Shown: positions 4,823-59,987 of the stretch, piece by piece
How positions within the stretch are numbered: position 1 is the stretch's first letter
How the letters are laid out: every line of letters starts with the position of its first letter
NCBI GenBank assembly: GCA_963402885.1
Contig: OY727102.1
Span: 7,812,001-7,876,000 of the forward strand
Direction of reading: 5' to 3'
DNA from: Antedon bifida
Lineage: Eukaryota > Echinodermata > Crinoidea > Comatulida > Antedonidae
DNA length: 64,000 bases
The notes under the pieces: model-generated
The model's input: the letters and a program-made list of their open reading frames with translations, nothing else
Databases searched by the model: none
Told to the model about the DNA's origin: nothing
Position numbers and translations under genes: made by a program

Positions 4823-4889
4823 GCGAGTCAAATTGCCGAGCGGCAGGGGCGCCGTTTACCGTACCTAAAGAGCCAACAATAACGGCATG
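4823..4889 (+). repeat. tRNA-derived SINE, left piece (interrupted)
   Basis: The sequence contains a box-A-like GCCGAGCGGC. It continues at 9287 with a box-B-like GGTTCGAGGCC after removal of the 4.4-kb element between them and one copy of ATG. It matches the order of motifs in the SINE at 54688. Confidence 0.6.
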
Positions 4890-5904
4890 TAGACTAGGCT
4901 ATGAATGAGGTAGGTGCCACCCGGAGAGGTAGAAATTCTCATATGACTTTTCTAGACCAGTTTTTTCTGGGGAATCCAAATATATTGGGTAAACGGGCTG
5001 TAACCTGAGAACTTTCGCGTGAGGGCGCTTTTTTCAAAATGGCTACCAGTTACAGTAGGCTATGATATCTTGGCAACCACTGGTCATAGAGAGTTGATTT
5101 TTGTGTCAAATTGTTCGGAATGTACATGTTCCTATTTGATTTAATAGAACATTTTGTCCGAAAATGGCCGGAAATACCTATATTGACCTTTGACCCAATA
5201 TCTAACAGATATCATATCTCCGTAACTACTCGACACAGAAAGTTGTAATTGGTGTCAAACTCTCCAGAATATAGATGTTTATATTCAAACTAATAGAACA
5301 TTATCTGTAAAAATGACCGGAAATAACGTTACTGACCTTTGACCCAAAATGCAATTTCTCCTATCTGATCACGTTAATCCTGTCAATTAATTCATTTTGT
5401 GCCAATTGGAGGTTGACATTCTCATATTATTTTCTGGACCAGTTTTTCATGTGCAATCCGAATATATGAGATAAATAAGCCATAACAAGGCCAAGAATTT
5501 AATTATTTTACTACATACATGCTTCCCTTTAGTGTTTCAGTCTGTATGTCGTGTATTAATCTTCAAGATCGCTCACATCACTGCAATCTGAAAAGTCTTC
5601 CTGGACATCCGTGGGCATCACTGTCTCAATCCATTTAGGCTCCATTTGTTCGTTCCATCCATTGTGTGTACTGTTGTTGACAAAATCATTGACGTCTGCT
5701 GATTGCCATTCTTTAGTAATGAAGTTTGCTCTAAGTATATGAAACTCAAGGGTCTGCTGACATGGTGGCAGTAATGATATATCTGTAATCTTGTTGTGTC
5801 TGGAAAACTTTCTGTTGAAGATAGCATATCTTGCTTGATTTACACTTTTCCCCTTCACTCCATACAATAGTGAAACATACTCTTCAAGTTCCTCATACAA
5901 CTCT

Positions 5905-6081
5905 GGGGACCCCTTTGGAAACAAGCCTCTGGGCTTAAAGGGCCATCCCCTGCTTTCCATGCTTTTTTCTTGTTTTATAGTCTTGTATTTTTATATTTAA
6001 TGTTTCTCTTTTTATTTCATTTACATTATACTGTTTTATAAATTTGTACTGTATTTGGAAAGCAATAAATATTACTTACTT
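5905..6081 (+). mobile_element. CR1-like LINE 3' end inserted in the transposon gene
   Basis: 177 bp absent from the right copy. It starts GGGGACCCCTTTGGAAACAA and ends with AATAAATATTACTTACTT, typical of CR1-type 3' ends. The target duplication is ACTCT at 5900-5904 and 6082-6086. It interrupts the coding frame between the SKE and LYEEL positions. Confidence 0.75.
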
Positions 6082-6732
6082 ACTCTTTTGATGGAACATC
6101 TGACACTCCAAGGTTGCAGAATGTGTCAACAAATTTTTCTTTTGATTCCAGAAGCTTCCAGCAGGTACGTTTTCCTTTCCGAAAGAAAGCGGAGTTATAA
6201 ACGTTACCTGTGAAAGCATGGAATCCAATAAGGGATGATTTCTGCGCTTTTGTTAAATCAATGTCACTCAATTTCAGTACCTTTCGGTATTTCCCAGTGT
6301 TTGTATCAATAATTACCCTCTGCCCATCATCTATGAAATGAGATAGTGCAATGACTTGAATATCAATGTCTCCAGAATGGGAACGAATTATTGCTACGCC
6401 TTGATTATTATTTGTTAAAGCATGCTTTGCATGCAGGATGACTTTCGTGTCGGCTTCTTCTTGGCTACTATTAAGCTCCGGAACCAATAAAACATCTCAG
6501 TTAGTAACGTAGATGCATTCTTTGTACGATGAAAAGTAGATAACATCACTCCTCATATCTGTTAGAATGCTTTCTTTCTTTGACACTAGTACACAGCGAA
6601 TAAGCTCAATCAATCTGGTCTTGTTCTCGCCGTTGGCAAGGAAATTGTTGAAATCAATGGGCAACTTTGATATTGTTGAGCTTACAATTACTTTTGGTGC
6701 AATACCGCGTCTGTTTCTCTCAATATACTTAA

Positions 6733-7359
6733 AGACCCCTTCCCTGCAATTTTGAACGTTTTTTGGAAAATAATACATATATATCACTTTAAAAACATTA
6801 AACCATGTCATTCCTTGTCTTAAATGTACGTTTTATGGTAAATTATGATAAAAAGTGAGAAACAATGCACTACCTAAGTAGCTCGCGGCGATCGACCTCT
6901 CGTGGACGGTCTTAGGCCTAGCCTAGCTAGGCTTAGTTTTGTAGGCCTAGCTGGTAAACATCGGTAACGTACGAACATCGTACGCTAGCTATATACCTAG
7001 CCTGACGTTGTATAGTTGCTGCATTAATTGTCTTTCTATTTTTGCCAGACTCCGTTGATACAAATTGAGGGAAAACCCGGTATTTTCGCTGAAAAGTTAG
7101 GAGTCTTCCATTTGTTTTGGCCTCACGATCGATCGAAAAGTGGGCGAATTACAGGTGAAAAACAAAAATATCAATCCGCGCGCAATGCATTTTGGGATTT
7201 ATAGCGGGCCGCTATAATTATTAGAATCGACTTATTTTTCACATTTTTAACCGTTTAAAGACGAAAAAAGTTATCGCAATAGGACCATATAGTATTATTT
7301 TTACATTAAATATAGTTTGTGATCTTAAATTAGATCTAAAAAACGTAGGGAAGGGGGCT
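6733..7359 (+). mobile_element. TTAA-flanked MITE, copy 1
   Basis: 627 bp with terminal inverted repeat AGACCCCTTCCCT and AGGGAAGGGGGCT, flanked by TTAA at 6729-6732 and 7360-7363. Removing it with one TTAA restores the host transposon frame (PKSIK then YIERNRRG), which fixes the boundaries. It contains palindromic GCGGGCCGC and repeated TAGGCCTA motifs. TTAA targets are known for piggyBac and Kolobok; which one applies is undecided. Confidence 0.8.
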
Positions 7360-7654
7360 TTAATGCTTTTTGGCAAGTATGCATCGGTAACAATATCAAC
7401 ACGCTTGTATCCTTTAGGGATGCTGTTGAAAACCTTTGCTGCAAGATCCTCGTACGTATCAGGGTAAGATGTAAATGTTCTGATTAATGCCATCAAGTCA
7501 ACAACATAGGCAATGACAGTAGCCTTTGCTGGCAGTGCTCGACCAGGATCCATAACACAATCTCACTTTATTTTCGAATAGTGGGAAGAAACTCGAAATC
7601 AAGGCAAATGGGAAAGTAAAAGTAATATAAGCTAATCGGGATGTTTTAGGAAAG

Positions 7655-8616
7655 CTTCTTGCCACCTCAACAAAGCATGGTAGAAAAATTGACTTTAAGA
7701 AAGCCTTTGAGTATCCACTTACCCCTGTCCCGCTAAGCCTGGCTAATGCAGATGGGACAAGACGAACAACTCAGAAAAGTGTCCTAATGGAAATTCTCAT
7801 CGAAAGTTCAACAGATGTTATGGATCCTGGTCGAGCAATGCCAGCAAAGGCTACTGTCATTGCCTATGTTGACTTGTAGCAAAGGTTTTCAACAGCATCC
7901 CTTTACATGCTTTAACAAATAACAATCAAGGCGTAGCAATAATTCGTTCCCATTCTGGAGACATTGATATTCCAGTCATTGCACTATCTCATTTCATAGA
8001 TGATGGGCAGAGGGTAATTATTGATACAAACACTGGGAAATACCGAAAGGTACTGAAATTGAGTGACATTGATTTAACAAAAGCGCAGAAATCATCCCTT
8101 ATTGGATTCCATGCTTTCACAGGTAACGATTATAACTCCGCTTTCTTTCGGAAAGGAAAACGTAACTGCTGGAAGCTTCTGGAATCAAAAGCAAAATTTG
8201 TTGACACATTCTGCAACCTTGGAGTGTCAGATGTTCCATCAAAAGAGTTGTATGAGGAACTTGAAGAGTATGTTTCACTATTGTATGGAGTGAAGGGAAA
8301 AAGTGTAAATCAAGCAAGATATGATATCTTCAACAGAAAGTTTTCCAGACACAACAAGATTACAGATATATCATTACTGCCACCATGTCAGCAGACCCTT
8401 GAGTTTCATATACTTAGAGCAAACTTCATTACTAAAGAATGGCAATCAGCAGACGTCAATGATTTTGTCAACAACAGTACACACAATGGATGGAACGAAC
8501 AAATGGAGCCTAAATGGATTGAGACAGTGATGCCCATGGATGTCCAGGAACTGTTTACACATAATGAATATGAAGACTTTTCAGATTGCAGTAATGTGAG
8601 CAATCTTGAAGATTAA
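7655..8616 (+). pseudogene. Broken XPG-like transposon nuclease, right copy
   Basis: An upstream block (about 7655-7880) reads FEYPLTPVPLSLANADG, then MDPGRAMPAKATVIAYV, and hits TAG. Two internal deletions remove the middle of the protein, including the N-terminal acidic motif and EEADTK. The frame then stays open from about 7909 to 8616, with SGDIDIPVIAL, GFHAFTGND and the full C-terminus ending NVSNLED. It is nearly identical to the left copy where they overlap, but keeps TGND and a longer acidic tail with an extra LFTHNEYE segment. Confidence 0.7.
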
Positions 8617-9286
8617 TACACGACATACAGACTGAAACACTAAAGGGAAGCATGTATGTAGTAAAATAATTAAATTCTTGGCCTTGTTATGGCTTATTTA
8701 TCTCATATATTCGGATTGCACATGAAAAATTGGTCCAGAAAATAATATGAGAATGTCAACCTCCAATTGGCACAAAATGAATTAATTGACAAGATTAACG
8801 TGATCAGATAGGAGAAATGTCTTGCATTTTGGGTCAAAGGTCAGTAACGTTATTTCCGGTCATTTTTACAGATAAAGTTCTATTAGTTTGAATATAAACA
8901 TCTAAATTCTGGAGAGTTTGACACCAATTACAACTTTCTGTGTCGAGTAGTTACGGAGATATGATATCTGTTAGATATTGGGTCAAAGGTCAATATAGGT
9001 ATTTCCGGCCATTTTCGGACAAAATGTTCTATTACATCAAATAGGAACATGTACATTCCGAACAATTTGACACCAAAATCAACTCTCTATGACCAGTGGT
9101 TGCCAAGATATTATAGTCTACTGTAACTGGCAGCCATTTTGAAAAAAGCGCCCTCACGCGAAAGTTCTCAGGTTACAGCCCGTTTACCCAATATATTTGG
9201 ATTCCCCAGAAAAAACTGGTCTAGAAAAGTCATATGAGAATTTCTACCTCTCCGGGTGGCACCTACCTCATTCATAGCCTAGTCTA

Positions 9287-9345
9287 ATGGGTTCGAGGCC
9301 GTAACGCTCCTAGTTCTGGTGATGGTGGTCTTTTGCAGATAAATA
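9287..9345 (+). repeat. tRNA-derived SINE, right piece
   Basis: Begins with the duplicated ATG, then GGTTCGAGGCC (box-B-like) and CTAGTTCTGGTGATGG, matching the SINE at 54688. Its tail appears to resume at 9922 after another insertion. Confidence 0.6.
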
Positions 9346-43100: not shown

Positions 43101-46100
43101 GAAAAATAATCATGGAAATCTACCAATATCAGTTAGCATTAATAAACTTAACAATCGTAGGTATGGCAGACCTTTGGTATCGTTCAGTTTTACACCTGGG
43201 GGGAAGAAGACTTCCGGTTGTATTAGTTGTATTAGACCTAGGGTTCTCTTCTGCCCGCGGCAAGGAAGTAGCATGTCTCGAAAATAGTTGGACTTGAGTA
43301 ACCCCCTGCCAAAGGACAACACAAGAGTGCCTCTCCTTGCTTCGAGAGAAGGTAACCCTGTAACCTCTAGGGCATTGTCATAGGAAATGTAGGTAGCACC
43401 TAACATTATTCGACATGCTCTTTTCTGGATGGTCTCAATGCTGTTGGCCATTTTCTTGGTAATAGCACCATGCCATACCTGGCAAGCGTATTCCAAGATG
43501 GGCCTAATGTAGGAAGTGTACACAGTGATTAGGTCATCAAGAACAACATTGACTTTCTTTAAAATACATAGAGCAAAGAGTCTTCTTGATGCCCGTGAGA
43601 CGATATCTTGGGTGTTGAGGTCCCACTTCAAATTACTTTGAATTGTGACGCCAAGCAATCTGTTCTACTACATCAAGGTTGGAGCCATTTAGATTAAAAA
43701 TGGGAGACGCAGCGTCAACGCTGATGTCTTTCAAAAAGTTAACAGTCATTATATGGCACTTAGAGGGCTTTGGGATCATATTATTCTTTCTACACCAATC
43801 ATTAACATCATTAAGCATCTCTTGCATTGCAGGCCTTGCTCCTTTGCTAACTACCTCTCCCAGGGTGAGGTCGTCTACGTATTTCCACCTTCTGCAGCTT
43901 CCGACACATGCATCATTAATGAGCACCAAGAATAACACGGGACCAAGCTTAGTCCCTTCTCCCATCCAGTATATTTGGTATTCATGGTGCGATCAGTGAG
44001 GAAGCTGCAGATGGTGGGAATTATAGACGACCTCACCCCGATGTCGATTAACTTCTTTATAAGAATGGAGTGGTCAACGAGGTCAAAAGCTTTGGTGAAA
44101 TCAATTGCGCACAGATTAACGTAAGTATACGTATTAAACGCCATATGTGCCAAAGTATTTATCTTTTTACTAATATTAAGACAAAACTCTGTCTGGAACC
44201 CAGACTACGCATTAACCTGCTATGCATTTCATAATAAAAGAAAAAAAAAGAAATATCCTTATTTAAATACTCATAAAACCATTATTGTTGTGATAAAAAA
44301 ATGTTTTACATATTGATAAACAGGATTCAAGATTAAGATGCATGCTTGCTTTTCGTCAGAAAAAAAAACCTTTTAAAAATCATTTTTATATCTACTTCTT
44401 ACAGTACTGAAATGCTTCGCCGTCTAGATCTTAAAATATTTCAGTATTCCTCCTCATTTATATATTCAAGACAACATGGTGGGCCTCATCAACGTTGAGT
44501 CTCTATATCAATTTAACCTTGATAGAGATAACTCGCTTGCTAGTTGTAATGAATTTTAACGGTGTGAATACGTTTACCCACATAAAAGTAACTTTGCTCG
44601 GCCTTTTAAATAGAGCATTCAGTCGTTCAACTCATGACATATTCTTCCAATAAGCATTCATTATTTGTATATCAGTTAATAGTAGTAGAAAATAAACTAA
44701 TGTTTAAATTAAAAAATTAATAATCTGCATACCTTTATCGGTTCCTAAGGTATGATCAACACGTGGTAGTACGTAACTCCGGTATCCGTCACCCGTATAG
44801 CGAGCCCAGTCAAACTTGTCGCCAATTCCCTGAGTGTAGTTACACATATCAACTTCAAATGTGCAACCCACGTCTTCCATTGGTGGAGGTGGTGCCGGTG
44901 TAGGAACTAAAATGTATTTCAATAATATAATGTGAAAGCTAAAATCAGATAAATCAACCACAACTAGTGTTTTTAAATGATCAATAAAAATGTTTCGATA
45001 TTCTGCAATCTCTCCATCCTAGATTAAATTAATATATGTCAGATTAGGAAAGCATCTGACCAGTCACTCACTAGTTAAATACAATTATCATACATTAGTA
45101 TGGTTACATAAAATGATACGAAACGTGTACGATCAATTCATCGGCATTTTACTCTATGACAACTTCTACGGACGAGTGTCGTCAAAATAAGTGAACATAA
45201 GATGATCTCCCTGCTCTACAGCTTGTGACGTAGAGAATATATGCCTGAGTACTGTCGAACGCAGGATTTCGACCGTCACAAATTAAAAGTACATTTTTTG
45301 CGAAAATTAAAAGTTACAATCAGAGAATTGATCGAGCGGAGTGAGATAGAATATCACATTTCTATTTAGTGCCGTTATAATATAGATTGATATTCGGTTT
45401 CATAAAATGGCCGCTTCATTATAAGCATAAGCCTATAGCTTTTATGTTTACGTAAAGTGTTGGGAAAGTTCCATATGCATTATGTTTGTAGATTAAGGGA
45501 TCATCATATTATTCATTACAGTAACAAATTTCTAAATGTTTTATTTCCAACTATAATCCCGAGTGGAATCCTGACATTATAATAATGCCCTTGTTCTACT
45601 TATAAGTATTAATTCCCTTCAGCAATAACAATATTTTAAAGCCAACGTTGAAACACAATTTGGAATGAGTAGGCTAAAAACAAAAGAAATGTTTGAACAC
45701 ATGAGCAATCTTATTTGATCAGGGGAAAATACTTTAGGCCTATACTTATTATTTCCCAAGTTATTTTTCAATTCGTCTAACTTAATTCAAGAGTGTGATT
45801 CAAACAAAATAATTATATAGTCCTAATAGATGAACACATCTTACTTTCAGGGCACTTTCCTTCATGTACAAAAACATCATCAAGAGCAATGTCCCCATAG
45901 TCTCCCTCACCTCTCACTGCTTCAAACACAACCTGAAAGATAAACCTACAACTGTATTGCTATCGTTGGTTTTCTGTTTTACTGCTAGAATATAAATCAG
46001 TCTACTGTATTACATTTGTTTTACTGGTGGTTTTATTCAGTGATGTTGACAAAATAAGTCCACAAACCTCAAAATAAACGACATTACATAATTATGTTCT

Positions 46101-56532: not shown

Positions 56533-59500
56533 TAGTAGAGCAGTTAATGACATGAGGTGTGCATTTTATTACCAAAGCATGAAACTTGGCACAAAGTTTC
56601 TTTAATGTATATAGATTCAAAATATCGGGGGGTGCCAAGTGTCCAACGTCCGGTATGGCGGCCATCTTGATTTCAAAATGGCCACCATAAAAACAAAAAA
56701 TGTTCATATCTTGGCAACTATACACATTAGAGACTTAATTCTGGTCTCAAATTGTTTACAAACTATATATTTCTATTTGCTCTAATGAAAATTTTCATCC
56801 AAAAATGACCGGAAATGACGTTTCTTTTAGTTTGACCTTTGACCTCGTATTTGTATATCTCTGTAACTACTGGTCATTTTCAATCGATTTTGGTGTCATT
56901 TTGTTCAGAATAAATACATTTATATTTGTAGTAATGAAACATTTTCACATAAAATGACCGGAAATACAATTTATGACCTTTGACATTTATTTATTGATTT
57001 TTAATTATGTGAATATACTGTATGTGGTTTTTGTTGGTCTTAAATGCACCTAATTTTGAACTTTGACCTGATAGGCGTAATTATATTAAATGATTAATGG
57101 ACTTAAATTGTATATAGTACATAAAATTGGTAAACATTGTGCTTGGTGGTACCATTAGTTCAGTGATGTTGGCACCTTCTGATTCGCTAAAAGTTTTAAT
57201 AGTTTGACAGAGGAAATAACATACATGTTATGGAATACCGTAAAACCTCGAAAAGGTGATAGTATGAGCTTCTTTTCGAGATAGACTGTATTTGAATGTC
57301 AAATGAATAGTATGATGATCGTGTTTATATCAATATATTATTAATGACCTTACAAAGAACCCTTTATATTTCAACAATCAAGCCTCAGTTATTCTACAAT
57401 TTATTGTTTTCCAAGTGGTAGGCCTATTTTGATTGCATCTTCTTTGTGTATGCTTCCTCGGTTAATATGGTCCTACCCCTCTTTCTTTGTCTGTAGATGG
57501 TTTTATACCCCCTTCTTTGTCTGTGGATGGTCTTCTACCCCCTCCTGTGTCTGTTGATGGTATTTCACCCCTTTCTTTGTGTGTGGATGGTCTTACACCC
57601 CTTTCTTTGTCTGTAGATGGTCTTACACCCCTTCTTTGTCTGTGGATGGTCCTACACTCCCTTCTTTGTCTGTGGATGGTCCTACACCCCCCTTCTTTGT
57701 CTGTGAATGATCCTACACCCCCTTCTTTGTCTGTGGATGGTCTTGAACCCCTTTCTTTGTCTGTGGACGGTCTTATACTTATTACTTATACTTATACTTA
57801 TGGATGGTCTTATACCCCCTTCTTTGTCTGTAAGTGGTCCTATACCCTTTCTTTGTCAGTGGATGGTCTTACACCCCCTTCTTTGTCTGTGGACGGTCCT
57901 ACACCCCCTTCTTTGTCTGTGGATGGTCTTACACCCCTTTCTTTGTCTGTGGACGGTATTATACCCCTTCTGTGCATGTGGATGGTCTTATACCCCCTTC
58001 CTTGTCTGTTGATGGTATTACACCCCTTTCTTTGTCTGTTGATGGTATTACACCCCTTTTTTTGTGTGTGGATGGTCTTGCACCCCTTTCTTTGTGTGGA
58101 AGGTCTTACACCCCTTCTTTGTCTGTGGATGGTCTTATACCCCCTTCTTTGTCTGTGGATAGCCTTACACCCATTTCTTTGTCTGTGGACGGTCCTACAC
58201 CCCCTTCTTTGTCTGTGGATGGTCCTACACCCTTCTTTGTCTGTGGATGGTCCTATACCCCCTTCTTTGTCTGTGGATGGTCTTATACCCCTTTTTTGTC
58301 TGTGGATGGTCTTATACCCCGTTCTTTGTCTGTGGATGGTCTTATACCCCCTTCTTTGTCTGTGGATGGTCTTATACCCCCTTCTTTGTCTGTGGATGGT
58401 CTCATACCCCCTTCTTTGTCTGTGGATGGTCTTACACCCCTTCTTTGTCTGGACCCACTACTTTGATTGATTAAATCAGACATTGTTTCTTGTATGATTA
58501 GGAGACCAAGACCTTCAAAGTGAAAGTCCACAGGTGGATGCCTAAAAAGGTCTTGTACAGAACAGTATATTGTACTGTAGGTCCATGTCACTAATTTGAG
58601 GATTACTTGAATAATTATATTGAGATGTCTTTTACGAATTGATTTGGTTCAGATTTTGCTAAAAAATCAATGACTAGAGAAAATCGAGGAAAAGGATTCA
58701 GATGGTTTACAGCAAAGGCCCATTACCATAACAATTGAGTACATTTTTTTAGATGCAACGAAATTAAACAAGAATTATCTGAGTTTCTGACTAATGAAAG
58801 TAGGTCTACTGCACAAATGCAGGATAAGTTTGTAGTAAGTACTTTGAAAATGAGAACTTTCCGAACTTGTCTCATATGCAGCATCAAAGAGGCCAACGAA
58901 AGAATGCTACTTTACATAAAAAATATTTCCAAATGGCATCTACCAATTCAATTAAACTTTTATTTCAGACAATTGTCCCTATGGTATAATACATTTTTAA
59001 AAAAAAGAAAAGATGAACGATTGACACATCACAGTTTAGCAAACAAGTCGGCATAGATGAGCTCAGTGATTGCTGTTTCTCAGTGATCTGTCATACTTTA
59101 CGCCTATCCTATCACATCAAAAGTAAAAAATTCAGAATAATAATTCCTGGTCATTTTTGCATTAAGTGTCATTTATTTCGTTAAAAAAAATTAGGTGCAT
59201 TTATACCAATGTAAACCACATACAGTATGTTCACAAAATTATATATGTCAAAGGTTATAAATTGTATTTCCAGTCATTTTATGTGAAAATGTTTCATTAC
59301 TACAAATATAAATGTCTCTATTGTGAACAAAATGACACCAAAATCAATTGAAAATGATCAGTAGTTACCGAGATATACAGATAAGAGGTCAAAGGTCAAA
59401 CTGAAAGAAACGTCATTTCCGGTCATTTTTTGACGAAACTTTTCATTAGAGCAAATAGAAATATGTGGTTTGTGAACAATTTAACACCAGAATCAAGTCT

Positions 59501-59916: not shown

Positions 59917-59987
59917 GCCCCAGTGATCTAATGGTTAGGACATCTGCATATCAAGAAGAAGGTCCGGGTTCGAATCTCGGTTGGGTA
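59917..59987 (+). tRNA. Degenerate tRNA-like sequence
   Basis: GTGATCTAATGGTTAGGAC (box-A-like), an anticodon-like arm TCTGC-ATATCAA-GAAGA with four of five pairs (loop triplet ATC), and CCGGGTTCGAATCTCGG (a good T arm). The acceptor pairs in only five of seven positions. T5 follows just downstream. It could be a tRNA pseudogene or a SINE head. Confidence 0.4.

Follow-up and report, generated by a model that had tools for sequence, protein, structure and literature searches.

Mu killer (Muk), a derivative of the maize transposon MuDR, is an inverted duplication in which both terminal inverted repeats (TIRs) come from one end of the parental element and enclose two partial, inverted copies of the transposase gene; it is described as a locus in which MuDR's mudrA-adjacent end has been retained and which silences MuDR (PMC3440606). 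In Galileo of Drosophila willistoni, a member of the P superfamily, the TIRs have recruited the end of the transposase open reading frame (ORF), over more than 500 bp in copy 147, and the target-site duplications (TSDs) are identical in each of the three copies whose TIRs are significantly extended (PMC4168063). KolobokP is a further eukaryotic element, composite-like in plan and equipped with a second nuclease, but it differs in having a His-Me finger nuclease, long direct repeats at its termini and a gene region inside, and it is not a palindrome (PMC9587614).

Here we describe an imperfect palindrome at positions 4890-9286 of a 64,000-nucleotide stretch of the Antedon bifida genome (contig OY727102.1; the whole stretch is called the window below). 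With a probability of roughly 0.87, we consider it a mobile, non-autonomous 3′-3′ derivative of a long-TIR, Academ-like cut-and-paste transposon. As in Mu killer, both TIRs derive from one end and two partial transposase copies lie in inverted orientation; unlike Mu killer, the end in question is the 3′ end of a different transposase gene, the joint is found in six insertions, and any silencing is putative. The arms are extended much as in Galileo, including the end of the transposase ORF, but Galileo belongs to another superfamily and has 7- or 8-bp TSDs and varied arm structures (PMC4168063), whereas here one discrete joint is common to several insertions and the TSD is 3 bp. The design is thus not wholly new, with Mu killer and the extended-TIR Galileo copies close to it, and the composite inverted form is less unusual than a first-pass annotation of the window had held. 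No title on a palindromic Academ element was met among the papers listed (30 of 105 in one case), which is weak evidence of absence since no search joined the two terms.

The palindrome constitutes a whole element (locus L031, 1391-5787). Its termini form a perfect 21-bp inverted match (TAGACTAGGCTATGAATGAGG, 4890-4910 versus 9266-9286) and it is flanked on both sides by ATG, a single 3-bp TSD, just as the first-pass annotation had reported. When up to three mismatches were allowed, a terminal 25-mer was located in the window only at 4890-4914 (+) and 9262-9286 (-), perfectly in both cases, and had no match in 100 dinucleotide shuffles of the window. Four pairs of arm blocks are 97-99% complementary (4890-5354/8822-9286, 5354-5600/8572-8818, 5586-5904/8244-8562 and 6082-6424/7906-8248). 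The left arm (arm I) contains two foreign inserts and the right arm (arm D) internal deletions; both gene copies are truncated at their 5′ ends, and neither holds a complete frame.

The genome assembly (315.6 Mb, 27 contigs) was searched for relatives. The terminal 21-mer, with up to two mismatches, occurred 32 times compared with no occurrence of a reversed control, and these termini resolved into 13 pairs and 6 singles, that is, 19 insertions (20 regions were retrieved, and one, L050, was dropped for lack of termini). Fifteen copies were delimited at both ends (the 13 pairs together with L040 and L042) and 4 of the 19 insertions were not. Matching 3-bp flanks were found in 14 of the 15 delimited copies, the exception being L037 (CAA/AAA). 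The flanks of these 15 copies showed no similarity between loci; the single match was that of the left flank of L040 to its own right flank, in repetitive DNA. A 668-bp probe from the right end gave at least 44 genome matches (best 40 of 1466 candidates scored), nine of which were weak (71-75% identity) and came from more distant sequences, including region L050.

One of these insertions, L044, is a single-copy version with the same termini, of the kind that the first-pass annotation had suggested looking for. It is 7203 bp long, is flanked by the TSD TGT and contains an uninterrupted frame of 1488 amino acids (aa), the gene stopping at about position 6573 of this 7203-bp element reference. 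In a six-frame search (best 31 of 301 candidates scored) no other close copy had its entire frame open, and L044 is the likely parent type of the palindrome. The same search returned at least five more distant matches with 26-32% identity, four of them free of stops. Two of these, L051 (C10:16998400-17002700) and L052 (C15:4932900-4936900), are distant homologues with long open frames that align along most of L044 with 25 and 27% identity, respectively, and several possibly intact lineages of this type of transposon may coexist. Viral contigs were also scanned for relatives of the protein; 112 pattern matches were obtained and none was confirmed.

Comparison with L044 revealed how the palindrome is built. 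Three diagnostic columns separate 5′ ends (L044, L047) from gene-linked 3′ ends, and all ten ends of the palindromes L031-L035 are of the 3′ type at these columns. Each arm reaches past the stop codon and takes in C-terminal sequence of the ORF. The palindrome is therefore made of two 3′ halves of one parent type joined head to head, and because of this both outer ends are the parental 3′ end. The first-pass annotation had described two copies facing each other: the head-to-head arrangement stands, while the parts are 3′ halves, not copies, with both ends taken from the 3′ terminus.

A common central junction was found in six insertions (L031-L035 and L040) lying on six contigs, with the TSDs ATG, ACG, CAT, TTT and TAA (L031-L035, in order) and ATA (L040). 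A 301-bp probe spanning the junction matched in full at five loci and over its positions 1-249 at L040 (13 of 13 candidates scored). On the L044 reference, all six follow the path 7203-5104 (-) then 5359-7203 (+), with later indels superimposed; L033 and L034, for example, map as 7203-5863 (-), 5502-5473 (-), 5416-5104 (-), then 5359-6205 (+) and 6201-7203 (+). The palindromes thus vary by internal deletions and inserts yet keep their termini. Pairwise differences among L031-L035 were 0-0.75%, and L033 (on C13) and L034 (on C8) were identical over 3771 bp, while the 60 bases preceding each differ. Because one junction is present on six contigs, within unrelated flanks and with separate 3-bp duplications, the palindrome most likely arose once and was then transposed as a unit, as the first-pass annotation had proposed from the window copy.

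The same observations bear on a simpler account, in which the palindrome would be a local inversion after insertion, a fold-back artefact of assembly or a segmental duplication. Palindromes are a known assembly error, and local inversion was what the first-pass annotation had named as fatal to its proposal. The recurrence of the junction at six loci with unrelated flanks and their own duplications contradicts all three versions, which we rejected, and a fold-back read would not explain arms that diverge by 1.4-2.8% and carry different inserts and deletions; we give this account hardly any credence.

The anatomy of the window copy, with reference positions taken from L044, is as follows.

4887-4889: left target-site duplication, ATG
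4890-9286: whole palindromic element (locus L031, 1391-5787)
4890-4910 (+): left 21-bp terminus, 3′ type, perfect inverted match to 9266-9286
4890-7557 (-): arm I, parent 3′ part (reference 7203-5361), gene on the minus strand
5556-5904 (-): arm I, final stretch of the reading frame, beyond the 177-bp insert
5905-6081: foreign insert of about 177 bp in arm I, ending in ...ATTACTTACTTACTC
6083-6732 (-): arm I reading frame of the nuclease domain (EEAD, DID and TGN motifs)
6733-7359: 627-bp insert (AGACCCC...GGGGGCT) resembling a miniature inverted-repeat transposable element (MITE), with TTAA on both sides
7364-7557 (-): arm I, start of the gene fragment (VVDLMAL and VTDAY motifs)
7557-7558: palindrome centre, head-to-head junction (reference 5361/5099 in L031, 5359/5104 in the others)
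7558-7815 (+): spacer present only in arm D (reference about 5104-5358)
7558-9286 (+): arm D, parent 3′ part (reference 5099-5416, 5473-5502 and 5863-7203)
7872-7905 (+): arm D, site where reference 5417-5472 and 5503-5862 (together about 416 bp) have been deleted on either side of a 30-bp piece that was kept
7906-8616 (+): arm D, open C-terminal part of the frame (parent aa 1253-1488)
9266-9286 (-): right 21-bp terminus, perfect inverted match to the left one
9287-9289: right target-site duplication, ATG

The arm I frame at 6083-6732 contains one in-frame TGA, and at the edge of the adjoining 177-bp insert there is a TAA. This insert, retroposon-like and with an ATTACTTACTTACTC tail, occupies an identical reference position in arm I in each of the five L031-type palindromes. 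The 627-bp insert was found only in L031 among the five; its ends are imperfectly inverted (AGACCCCTTCCCT / AGGGAAGGGGGCT) and, together with the TTAA, suggest a Kolobok- or piggyBac-like origin. Inside each end of L031 there is a tandem repeat with 149-bp spacing and units 73-74% identical (5061-5350 and 8814-9111), which may contain transposase-binding sites.

The joint itself reads GTGAG-ATG-ATGTTATGG in L032-L035 and L040, and in L031 two adjacent bases differ from the other five copies. Compared with L044, the left part matches through GTGAG and the right part from AGATGTTATGG, giving a 2-bp overlap (AG) and an added ATG. Such a joint fits error-prone end joining and template switching alike. 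According to the model we propose, the joint would have been made once, at the 2-bp microhomology, during repair of an excision gap by template switch, snap-back or end joining; the resulting palindrome would then have been moved in trans by the transposase of intact relatives such as L044, an enzyme that would have to accept a 3′-3′ pair of ends. In the L031-type palindromes arm D has a 255-bp spacer that is absent from arm I, and arm D has lost about 416 bp in two pieces. L040 retains arm DNA that L031-L035 have lost and lacks other DNA that they keep, so that in the ancestral palindrome both arms were probably fuller. The structure of L042 is consistent with derivation from the L040 type by deletion.

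A different route to the same final product would be macrotransposition, in which two complete elements situated near each other, tails outward, were mobilised together through their outer 3′ ends, with loss of the intervening DNA at a later time. Internal deletions are frequent in the family, and conversion between arms would leave no trace of whether there had been one parent or two. However, not one of the 15 copies delimited among the 19 insertions contains two complete elements, and the asymmetric 255-bp spacer and the microhomology joint suit a single event of end joining or template switching at least equally well. We regard macrotransposition as the less likely route, though one to be taken seriously.

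To compare the arms, a tree was built from 1340 columns. In it the arms of L031-L035, I and D alike, clustered together (97/94), and the arms of L040 formed a second cluster with L042 and L039 (94/91). Divergence between the two arms of one palindrome was 1.4-1.8% in L031, L032, L033 and L035 and 2.8% in L040. Eight sites joined arms within a palindrome lineage and none joined orthologous arms; grouping by orthologous arm was rejected in approximately unbiased (AU) tests with p = 0.0039 and 0.0028, although the groups were named after the tree had been seen. Given one origin of the joint, the simplest reading is that the arms have been kept alike by gene conversion between them. Gene conversion would not be needed if the palindrome had formed twice at the same breakpoint, once in the lineage of L031-L035 and once in that of L040. 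The clustering of arms by lineage, with eight sites for and none against, agrees with such a double origin, as does the support of only 71/77 for a single clade of all palindromic arms. Against it, the breakpoints of L040, 5104 and 5359, recur in L032-L035 together with its extra ATG, and this identical joint with added bases makes two origins very unlikely.

Several observations weigh against our reading of a once-formed, mobile palindrome with converted arms. Transposition is inferred from sequence comparison rather than observed, and the proposed birth mechanism draws on one joint. Among the best 31 of 301 candidates scored, a single intact transposase copy was seen. The flanks of L037 do not form a matching TSD, and the left terminus of L040 has three mismatches. 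Concerted evolution of the arms is read from 8 of 1340 columns, the AU p-values assume groups set beforehand when the arm groups were named after the tree was seen, the clade of all palindromic arms reaches only 71/77, and the sister lineage comprises one complete palindrome (L040) in addition to L042 and L039.

When the 19 insertions were classed by their end pairs, eight were 3′-3′ (L031-L036, L040 and L042), seven were 5′-3′ (L037, L038, L041, L043, L044, L045 and L047) and four (L039, L046, L048 and L049) were placed in neither class. The 5′-3′ call is doubtful in five of the seven. The short ends of L037, L038, L041 and L045 have the parental 3′ end as their best BLAST match, yet they cluster with true 5′ ends in the tree (100/95) and are of the 5′ type at three of three diagnostic columns; we classed these elements as 5′-3′, and the alternative reading would add four 3′-3′ elements. 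In the fifth, L043, the left end maps to the parental 5′ end yet is of the 3′ type at the three columns. L047 lacks its far terminus. L036 (1361 bp) and L048 (738 bp) are small and near-perfect palindromes that end in the same termini, have the TSDs TAG and TAA, respectively, and are possible MITE-like end-products of the same process. The ends of the 1361-bp palindrome are of the 3′ type. Neither is claimed as an independent birth of a palindrome: internal deletion of the palindrome explains L036 equally well, and L048 lies within the TIR.

The likeness to Mu killer raises the possibility that the palindrome, itself mobile, gives rise to hairpin RNA by which the gene for the parental transposase is silenced, in the way proposed for Mu killer and MuDR. 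The architecture is the same (PMC3440606). About 1.4 kb of the L031 arms can pair (sum of arm blocks), about 0.8 kb of which is coding, and the arms are kept alike. However, arms can also be similar simply as a side effect of being long inverted repeats, and the absence of any difference between L033 and L034 over 3771 bp points to recent movement and hence to silencing that would be incomplete at best. We consider a silencing function improbable. The fuller version of this idea, in which an animal-type genome would harbour a multicopy and mobile counterpart of Mu killer that combines jumps assisted by its parent, hairpin RNA directed against the parental transposase at any site where it is transcribed, and arms matched by conversion, we hold to be similarly doubtful.

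The C-terminal domain of the 1488-aa frame was also analysed. The first-pass annotation had recognised XPG motifs in the window protein. Their acids are invariant in L044, L051 and L052, in the motifs V-x-D-x-Y, EEAD, DxD and TGxD, as are that of VVDxMxL and K1151, E1154, R1155 and R1158 following the second Asp, whereas other letters vary (VADAY in L044, EEADQ in L052). A profile was made from 30 FEN1 sequences whose source genomes belong to the same phylum as a Halobacteriales record. With hhalign the domain aligned to it with a score of 36.1, a probability of 34% and an E-value of 0.00042 (for one comparison), over 48 columns around TGND; in controls, the highest score was 24.7 for windows lacking the TGND stretch and 26.4 for 100 column shuffles, and the reversed domain gave 12.9. 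These 48 columns were all that the default local run aligned, and global runs left the domains unaligned. In a permissive alignment each of the seven catalytic acids of FEN1, chosen as they are generally known, fell on an invariant acid, and such acids make up 11 of 345 columns, whereas 300 column shuffles placed at most three of seven and scored 25.7 compared with the real 36.1. Here the E-x-E pair of FEN1 is matched to the adjacent EE rather than to E and the D two positions later.

At the level of sequence families the picture is different. HMMER searches of Pfam, NCBIfam, PHROGs and PDB gave no match to XPG, which is the outcome that the first-pass annotation had named as counting against its claim, and a search of the genome with XPG_I did not detect the nuclease domain. 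The best Pfam match was Elong-fact-P_C, with E-values of 0.0015 to 0.018, under its cut-off. Single-sequence AlphaFold2 modelling of the 236-aa fragment from the window alone gave a mean predicted local distance difference test (pLDDT) score of 34.5. Profile-profile and motif comparisons thus make a FEN/XPG-like active site in this domain very probable, which upholds the nuclease proposed earlier at that level, and the domain may belong to the XPG/FEN1 family, for which no significant match to a family profile was found.

The nuclease of Academ transposons is of the XPG type, although a literature search joining both words found no paper. AcademX elements make 3- or 4-bp TSDs and AcademH elements TSDs of 9 or 10 bp, a difference that seems tied to the nuclease and helicase they encode (PMC10045372). 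The element described here shares with AcademX a TSD of 3 bp, in 14 of 15 delimited copies, and an encoded nuclease, recognised by the FEN1-type acid set in the frame of L044 through motif and profile-profile comparison and missed by HMMER. Because of this combination, Academ (AcademX type) fits best, the comparison being by description only. Neither Pfam nor NCBIfam gave a match to Academ. Academ is listed among the superfamilies with a DDD/E transposase (PMC9587614), and curated Academ elements have a mean length of 5565 bp (PMC10294476). The DDD/E core of L044 was not located: D610, D659 and E693 are invariant in the three homologues and are candidates only. A weak TCR/CXC match was present in two of the three proteins (L044, L051 and L052), with a best E-value of 0.77.

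These results suggest that a transposon of a poorly studied kind seems to accept two 3′ ends as a working pair, which bears on how a transposase reads its ends. The intact parent, deleted single-gene copies and fuller, deleted and small palindromes form a natural series for the birth of foldback and MITE-like elements, and the concerted arms would offer measurable gene conversion inside a mobile palindrome. Should the arms feed small-RNA silencing, transposon debris would be linked to the control of its own family, as proposed for Mu killer.

Elsewhere in the window, a 182-aa open frame at 43110-43658 (minus strand) resembles what we take to be the end of a non-long-terminal-repeat retrotransposon reverse transcriptase. 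At 59917-59987 there is a marginal Rfam match to tRNA (29.5 bits versus a cut-off of 29), where ARAGORN finds none. A tandem repeat at 57487-58470 contains an open frame of SVDGL.PPSL-like units and is probably a minisatellite, not a gene.

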